From contig JACMKO010000453.1 in the NCBI GenBank assembly GCA_014380065.1, positions 1 to 33,187 of the forward strand: DNA of 33,187 nt. The letters run 5' to 3'. Of this stretch, positions 29,590-31,569 are shown one piece after another. Source of the stretch: Leptolyngbya sp. ES-bin-22. GTDB lineage: Bacteria; Cyanobacteriota; Cyanobacteriia; Leptolyngbyales; Leptolyngbyaceae. Positions within the stretch are counted from its first letter, which is position 1; each line of letters starts with the position of its first letter. The translations under genes were made by a program, and so were the position numbers. The notes beneath the pieces were generated by a model. The model was not told the origin of the DNA. It worked only from the letters and a program-made list of their open reading frames with translations, and did not search any database.

Positions 29590-31569
29590 TTAGCTGATGC
29601 CTTTCCGGCAGATTGTCCTTGCCTGTCGCCGCTGCACGGGGTTTGCACCCTGCTGGTTGCTAAGACCGGGACACCAGCGCTCGATCGCACTTTTTACCTC
29701 AGCATGAGCGGGTTGGTCTTGTGGCACCAGGCGTGCAGCGACAATGGCAGCATCAAAACTACCCTGTCTACCCCGTTGCCGCGCGATCGACATCATTTGG
29801 CGGCTCCACAGGGCGATATCTTGCTTCGCCTGAGCATAATCTGGCTGCCCTGGCTTGATCTGTCTGGCTTCCTGAATGGCAAACCAGTACGGCGATGCCT
29901 GATTGCTGTTAACTGCTGCTAGCGCTCTTGCTTTTGCTAAGTGAGTCGGTGTTGACAGCTTGACGGTGCTGGCAATGCCCGCTGATGGCGCTTGAGACCG
30001 TGCTGTGCTTCCAGCCTTGCCCACAGACAGATTGAGCTGACTCGCACCGGATACTCCAATTTGAGTGGACACGATCGGCTGGGGCGAAGGTGGTTTTACG
30101 ACTGGTGCTGTCGTTGGGGAGACTGGCACTAAACCCGTTACACCAGATGGCGTTGTCGATTCGGGTGTTTTCTTTAGAGCCGCTTGTGCTGTGGCAGCTT
30201 GTCCGCTAGCTTGCCCTGTACTAGAGGTAGTGGGTTGCTGTGCTGTCGCTGGAGGCTTGGGCGTGAAAGCGGCACAGTTACGCAGTAGTACGCCCAGAAT
30301 TAGCCCAACGACAGCAAGACCGCCCCATCGCAAGACCGATCGCCAGAAAAGGGCATCAGAAATTTCGTTTGCGTCTTCAGCATCGTCAGAATGTAGCTGG
30401 GGCACGGTGGCTTGGTCAGAATGAGCAATTCCATTCTCGTGATTTTGGGCGGCGCTGTCGAGAGGGTAGCGCGTTCCAGCACCATTTGGTTGCATCGGGG
30501 CTGATGTGAACGCGTTAGCACTGGGTATGGAATCGATCGACCCATTCAACCCGCGCTGCGATGAGACAGGATGAGCCTCTGAATTTGCCTCTGATACCAC
30601 GATCATCCCACCGTTGCTATGGCTCACTCCACCATTAGCTGCGAGTGCCTCACGACCCAGTGCTGCTGTCACCGTTGCACCTGCCGTCGAGAGACCATTG
30701 CCGTTCACAGACGCACCGACACGATCAAGCGTGTTCGCGCTAGAGGTAGCTCCCACGGCTGTGGGGAATGCGGTACCGTTTGTGACGGCAGTCTGCATTG
30801 CAAACGTGCGATCGCCAGCCTGGTAAGACGCAATCGGCGCTGGCAGTATGAGCTGCTGCCGCTTTTCGGTGGGGCAGATCGTGACAGGCTGTTGAATCGG
30901 TCGCCAATAGTGGTCACTCAACGCTGGGAGGTGAGTGCTCAAAGCCTGATCGAGTGCTGCGACTGTTGTAGACTGGTGGCTTCGCAGGCTTTCTAGCAGC
31001 GCTGCTGTGAAAAACCCATGCCCCAAGGCTGACGTTTCGCGAGCAAACTGCTCTGGCTGGCAAGAAAGAAGCGTCGGAATGCCAGTTGTACTCGCCAAGT
31101 GCGCTGTATGGGTGCCGACCGTTTCATACGAAAAGCTGCTTTCATTGCGGTTGATATCTAGCAGCACCAGCACGGTTGCAGTCGAAACACGCTGCAAGCT
31201 ACGGAAAATAGTTTCTAGTGGTATGGCAGAGGGTTGAATCGCTGCCGGATTGCCTTCGATCGGCACCAGATAATCCTGCCCCTGCTGACAGATGCCATAG
31301 CCGCTAAAAAAGAACCAAAGCACGTCGCCTGGTTGCACACACTGTTGCGTGATGAAGTCAAGCCAGCTTTGGATCGCTTCACGATCGGGATAGGTCGACT
31401 TGCCCCACTGCGGCGGTGATGTTTCTGTTAGTAACACGCACTGTTCAGCAGGAACTTTGACATCCTCCATCAAGAAGCGTTGGATGGCTTGAGCATCATG
31501 CTGGGCATAGCTCAAGGGTTGAAAAAACTGATACTGATTAATGCCGACGCTGATTGCCCACTGTCTCAT
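29590..31569 (-). CDS. Membrane-anchored caspase-fold protein with Tyr/Asn in place of the His/Cys dyad (pseudo-orthocaspase)
   Basis: 659 aa, ATG start. The N-terminal 240 residues are a peptidase C14 p20-like domain: WAISVGINQYQFFQPLSYAQHDAQAIQRFL, then WFFFSGYG and LVLLDINRNES. Active members have SGHG and DxCR; here position 91 is Tyr and position 140 Asn, so cysteine-protease activity is not expected. A long Ser/Ala/Asn-rich linker follows. One membrane segment (VLRWGGLAVVGLILGVLL, near 425-445), a Thr/Pro/Ala-rich stretch and a helical C-terminal domain with repeat-like helices (ASPYWFAIQEARQIKPGQPDYAQAKQDIALW) complete it. Caspase-fold genes are numerous in filamentous cyanobacteria; tyrosine-type variants have been described, with unknown roles. 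Confidence 0.9.
   Translation of the reverse strand: MRQWAISVGINQYQFFQPLSYAQHDAQAIQRFLMEDVKVPAEQCVLLTETSPPQWGKSTYPDREAIQSWLDFITQQCVQPGDVLWFFFSGYGICQQGQDYLVPIEGNPAAIQPSAIPLETIFRSLQRVSTATVLVLLDINRNESSFSYETVGTHTAHLASTTGIPTLLSCQPEQFARETSALGHGFFTAALLESLRSHQSTTVAALDQALSTHLPALSDHYWRPIQQPVTICPTEKRQQLILPAPIASYQAGDRTFAMQTAVTNGTAFPTAVGATSSANTLDRVGASVNGNGLSTAGATVTAALGREALAANGGVSHSNGGMIVVSEANSEAHPVSSQRGLNGSIDSIPSANAFTSAPMQPNGAGTRYPLDSAAQNHENGIAHSDQATVPQLHSDDAEDANEISDALFWRSVLRWGGLAVVGLILGVLLRNCAAFTPKPPATAQQPTTSSTGQASGQAATAQAALKKTPESTTPSGVTGLVPVSPTTAPVVKPPSPQPIVSTQIGVSGASQLNLSVGKAGSTARSQAPSAGIASTVKLSTPTHLAKARALAAVNSNQASPYWFAIQEARQIKPGQPDYAQAKQDIALWSRQMMSIARQRGRQGSFDAAIVAARLVPQDQPAHAEVKSAIERWCPGLSNQQGANPVQRRQARTICRKGIS

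Follow-up and report, generated by a model that had tools for sequence, protein, structure and literature searches.

Cyanobacterial caspase homologues that lack the catalytic His/Cys dyad have been described before. Klemencic et al. (2019) named a YN clade, with 49 sequences in its logo, and stated that nitrogen-fixing multicellular cyanobacteria are its only hosts (excerpts of PMC6426788), a restriction repeated in a 2021 survey (excerpts of PMC8283722). Metacaspase homologues with a transmembrane helix were listed as cbMC alpha-TM, type 'H-Y C-N', in Nostoc sp. PCC 7120 and N. punctiforme by Jiang et al. in 2010 (excerpts of PMC2853523), a 2012 survey described proteins of cyanobacteria whose membrane helix is C-terminal and whose p20 domain was predicted to lie inside (PMC3501461), and SyOC of Synechocystis (sll0148) is a Tyr-Gly variant (PMC7889975). 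Since the YN clade was named in 2019 and membrane-anchored 'H-Y C-N' entries date from 2010, the type of protein analysed here is not new. What goes beyond these accounts is its conserved pairing with an unstudied membrane-protein gene and its distribution, which follows filamentous (hetR-bearing) lineages and not nitrogen fixation.

The window, a stretch of 33,187 nucleotides from Leptolyngbya sp. ES-bin-22 (assembly GCA_014380065.1, contig JACMKO010000453.1), contains a gene with an ATG start codon whose product consists of an N-terminal p20 domain, one transmembrane helix and a helical C-terminal domain (Table 1). The protein matched the Peptidase_C14 model PF00656 over residues 2-204 (E 3.3e-13; score 50.3 bits, cut-off 21.4) and thus belongs to the C14/caspase fold; the match reached position 201 of the 233 in the model, and C-terminal of it a comparison with Pfam gave no further domain. 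The p20 domain begins at residue 2-3 with no N-terminal extension, so the TAT-like extension of the YS type is absent. In place of the His/Cys dyad of an active orthocaspase the protein carries Tyr91 (within FFSGYG) and Asn140 (within LLDINRNES). This replacement had been read from the letters by the first-pass annotation and was borne out: both codons were confirmed in the translation, and the two columns hold His and Cys in 34/34 close paralogues. A chance reading frame or a sequencing error is excluded, because the same motif is found in relatives at 43-84% p20 identity.

Table 1 Features of the pseudo-orthocaspase gene and of the gene next to it (positions in the window)
Feature	Position	Strand	Evidence
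YN-type pseudo-orthocaspase gene, 659 aa	29590..31569	(-)	ORF and translation, PF00656, family alignment, AF2 model
p20 caspase-like domain, residues 1-245	30835..31569	(-)	PF00656; AF2 pLDDT >87 in most ten-residue blocks; Foldseek
Tyr91 at the catalytic His position (SGYG)	31297..31299	(-)	Translation; clade column Y 81, H 3, C 2, Q 1, L 1
Asn140 at the catalytic Cys position (LDINR)	31150..31152	(-)	Translation; clade column N 76, S 9, A 1, K 1, R 1
Asp25, aligned with an Asp of the substrate pocket in T. brucei metacaspase 2	31495..31497	(-)	99% of clade, 100% of HC paralogues; TbMCA2 alignment
Asp138, D-x-C motif, second pocket Asp	31156..31158	(-)	88/88 clade rows, 34/34 HC paralogues
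Low-complexity linker, residues 246-402	30364..30834	(-)	pLDDT ~30; dN/dS above p20 in 20/20 pairs
Single transmembrane helix, residues 403-432	30274..30363	(-)	AF2 helix; Kyte-Doolittle maximum 2.01, 19-residue window from residue 411
Helical C-terminal domain, residues 543-656	29602..29943	(-)	pLDDT 81-97 per block; repeat in family alignment
DUF4082 / PTPA-CTERM gene between the pseudo-orthocaspase and the off-contig partner	31860..32558	(-)	

The AlphaFold (AF2) model contained a confident p20 domain, the membrane helix and the helical domain, joined by disordered linkers, in agreement with the membrane anchor and helical C-terminal domain claimed earlier. Modelling of the structure had been proposed as a check, and it returned a caspase-like fold: Foldseek placed the high-pLDDT p20 closest to metacaspase 7qp0 (E 2.7e-10) and MALT1 among PDB entries, with E values overall of ~1e-10 to 1e-9. 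Sequence searches against solved structures likewise aligned the protein with T. brucei metacaspase 2 and a Candida metacaspase, and weakly with MALT1. In the family alignment the C-terminal domain contains a repeat of ~85 aa, present as one copy in the window protein, where it had no Pfam match, and as two copies in Nostocales. The repeat was also seen in other single-pass cyanobacterial proteins that have no p20, often as arrays (L098-L103).

Relatives were drawn from 58 related genomes and from a species-level collection, which supplied 48 contigs; further paralogues were added, and a tree of 129 p20 domains was built. The 88 relatives with neither an HC nor a YC dyad formed one clade (support 99/98) with zero HC sequences inside it; branch lengths were uneven and the bootstrap was not fully settled, so the order within the tree is uncertain. 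In the alignment with cyanobacterial C14 domains suggested by the first-pass annotation, the His/Cys dyad is missing from all 88 rows. The YN dyad itself occurs in 76 of them (72 as counted in the tree), the others being YS, HN, QS, CA and so on, never HC, and even sister rows differ, YN against YS (L017 and L026). Asp25, Trp85, Asp138 and Arg141 are conserved in the clade and in the HC paralogues alike. Read from the alignment, the dyad was lost and afterwards drifted with the pocket unchanged, and the loss would most simply be a single event in the ancestor of the clade. A relocated catalytic His or Cys seems unlikely, as no clade-specific conserved His/Cys column was found near the motifs. 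Cys44 is conserved and clade-specific, and Cys170 is conserved in the clade and in the HC paralogues too; neither resembles a moved nucleophile, Cys44 being remote from the motif loops along the sequence and Cys170 being common to the HC paralogues. We also considered a YN-specific blocking Trp and rejected it, since Trp85 is present in 33/34 HC paralogues.

The dN/dS values (NG86) of the p20 domain were 0.02-0.28 in 20 pairs, with several dS values >1 and hence rough; the check proposed earlier thus found p20 under purifying selection. The value for the first linker exceeded that of p20 in every pair, and the C-terminal domain gave 0.03-0.60 where computable. The protein is being maintained and shows no decay. 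Taken together, a dyad that drifts with no return to HC, a fixed Asp25 and Asp138 and the purifying selection on p20 favour a putative non-catalytic domain.

Clustering of the neighbouring genes revealed an opposite-strand gene of ~150-260 aa just upstream of the pseudo-orthocaspase in 33/48 loci, its product combining a hydrophobic helix at the N terminus with a conserved ~100-aa domain and, mostly, a proline-rich tail. The AlphaFold model of this partner predicts a compact domain together with a long membrane helix. The partner matched nothing in Pfam or NCBIfam, no PDB fold was better than E 0.1, and on these grounds a named function was dropped. The partner was found in 200 of the 390 genomes that were also searched for the family. 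Among the top-scoring matches listed, which make the pair count a sample of the better matches, at least 109 genomes have both genes, on the same contig in 99 and on different contigs in 10, and all 99 same-contig pairs among them are divergent, head to head and within 3 kb (median match-to-match gap 346 bp). This order proves a shared position, not an interaction. The pair is not obligate, because 48 genomes have the partner alone and 33 carriers have no detected partner.

The host's partner gene was located on another contig (C281:6-497), whose start truncates it; it is not visible from the window, since the window's contig extends only 1618 bp upstream of the pseudo-orthocaspase. The order pseudo-orthocaspase, DUF4082 gene, partner, which agrees with the window, occurs in two congeners. 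Synteny with the window's other neighbours was seen in two congeners only. In one genome (G159, L214) only a short partner-like fragment stands beside the pseudo-orthocaspase, suggesting that the partner was lost there. The convergent downstream neighbour is one family in 36 loci (e.g. L041:6997-7371), and the member tested matches PF06967, the Mo-dependent nitrogenase C-terminus family. In Nostocales the intergenic region between the divergent genes contains a conserved element (e.g. L046:4914-4925), the imperfect inverted repeat TAGGTTAGCyTTGTTTTTT..GCAAAGCCAACC, which was not seen upstream of the window gene. NtcA-like sites in the shared intergenic region were discarded as a candidate, being found in only 6/34 Nostocales loci.

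For the distribution, the family profile, NifD and HetR_C (PF18460) were each run against 390 genomes of the class. Because HC paralogues reach about E 1e-64 against the family profile, presence was called at E 1e-75 or better, which left 12 genomes ambiguous. The family was present in 178/390 genomes, 89 of them with nifD and 89 with none, and nitrogen fixation was rejected as the determinant since half of the carriers are without nifD. The published restriction of YN to nitrogen fixers thus fails. In the host genus the YN protein occurs in 7/7 genomes (the host and six congeners, 91-100% completeness), and the NifD search gave no match in any of them. The gene hetR marks filamentous lineages. 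It was found in 171/178 carriers against 19/200 unambiguous non-carriers (counts compared by exact tests that ignore shared ancestry), and within hetR genomes the family was present in 87/88 nitrogen fixers and 84/102 non-fixers, a residual link that again ignores ancestry. The host genome gave no hetR match, though hetR is present in its six congeners, and an assembly gap is probably the reason. A nitrogen-fixation clue is thus replaced by a stronger hetR/filamentous clue, which changes where a phenotype would be sought.

Our preferred reading, towards which we lean without great confidence, is that the protein is a YN-type non-catalytic single-pass membrane receptor or scaffold that acts or is co-regulated with the partner. 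The p20 domain would lie on the cytosolic side, with the caspase fold and the acidic pocket kept and the dyad lost, and may bind a basic peptide or protein ligand, or dimerise. A signal could then be relayed via the membrane helix to the helical domain on the opposite side, which may act or be co-regulated with the divergent partner, itself presumably anchored and carrying a small domain that lies beyond the membrane. One genome (G051, L213) bears on how much of this is carried by p20: a 417-aa protein with a transmembrane helix and two C-terminal repeats stands there head to head with the partner and without p20, showing that p20 can be absent and suggesting, from a single case, a link of the membrane and C-terminal part to the partner, with p20 as a module that can be separated from it. 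Taken further, p20 could be a passive structural remnant, with the membrane helix and C-terminal domain doing the work together with the partner; this we regard as unlikely, since the p20-less case was seen once only and p20 is under strong purifying selection with near-invariant pocket residues across the clade.

The search for active-type paralogues elsewhere in the genome, called for by the first-pass annotation, yielded two HC genes (L002 and L003) and a third (L004) whose His is visible before the contig end, in a list that may be incomplete, because the PF00656 search of the host genome missed the window's own gene. A YC paralogue of the host genus (L001 at G000:C324, L128, L131, L134 and L135) has Tyr for His with the Cys kept, and this group forms a small separate clade (100/100), with HC in related genera. 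A further C14-like protein of the host (L005, G000:C552:14279-14647) carries Tyr in both motifs (FCGYT and LDSYQ), has a hydrophobic stretch and TPR-like repeats after them, and matched the NCBIfam model caspase_w_EACC1 below its cut-off. With L002 and L003 in the same genome and the acidic pocket retained, the dead p20 might bind substrates of active orthocaspases, or the proteases themselves, and so tune them as cFLIP does caspase-8. We consider this doubtful: the conserved neighbour matches no protease family, and small unicellular species have only pseudo-variants, of another type (excerpts of PMC6426788). For the earlier suggestion that the protein regulates active paralogues we found no positive evidence, and Klemencic et al. 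argue against it for cyanobacteria (excerpts of PMC6426788). It is highly improbable that the protein uses unusual Tyr/Asn chemistry as a protease or to cleave itself: Tyr is kept in 81/88 and Asn in 76/88 clade rows, but orthologues also show H, C, Q or L at the first position and S, A, K or R at the second, with YN/YS sister rows among them, a variation that such catalysis could hardly tolerate.

The receptor or scaffold reading can be extended, speculatively, to a two-gene envelope system of filamentous cyanobacterial lineages, in which the dead cytosolic pocket of the pseudo-caspase would sense a peptide signal and act via the paired outer domains of the two proteins, with filament integrity and communication between cells as examples of a role. 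The role of inactive caspase homologues in bacteria is a question that the partner, head to head in 99 genomes, may help to address, and for which it offers a concrete handle.

Compared with the known systems, the window protein belongs to the published YN clade, an assignment that rests on the dyad, the taxa (Nostoc, Calothrix and Microcoleus) and the transmembrane helix, and not on the published alignment. The Tyr/Asn dyad lies in a distinct p20 clade with conserved pocket Asp residues (Asp25 99%, Asp138 100%), and the dyad, the pocket Asp and the Trp before the Tyr are shared with the YN clade as excerpted, for which no p10 is reported there (PMC6426788). With the 2010 Nostoc entries it shares a single transmembrane helix (excerpts of PMC2853523). 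The host genus differs in having no nifD match, whereas the excerpted papers give nitrogen fixers only; the description of a YN host as a multicellular nitrogen fixer, a claim on distribution and not a defining feature of the protein, does not hold here. Neither the partner gene nor the C-terminal repeat appears in the excerpted YN accounts (PMC6426788, PMC8283722 and PMC2853523). A cyanobacterial p20 without the catalytic dyad is common to the window protein, the YS pseudo-orthocaspases and Synechocystis SyOC; by description, the YS clade is set apart by its N-terminal TAT-like extension (excerpts of PMC6426788), whereas the window protein starts directly with p20. Further afield, TbMC4, the YS pseudo-metacaspase of T. 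brucei, and human cFLIP-L are described as acting with active relatives, and for neither is this membrane and repeat architecture mentioned; compared by description, both are like the window protein inactive p20 homologues, and both have a role (excerpts of PMC6426788).
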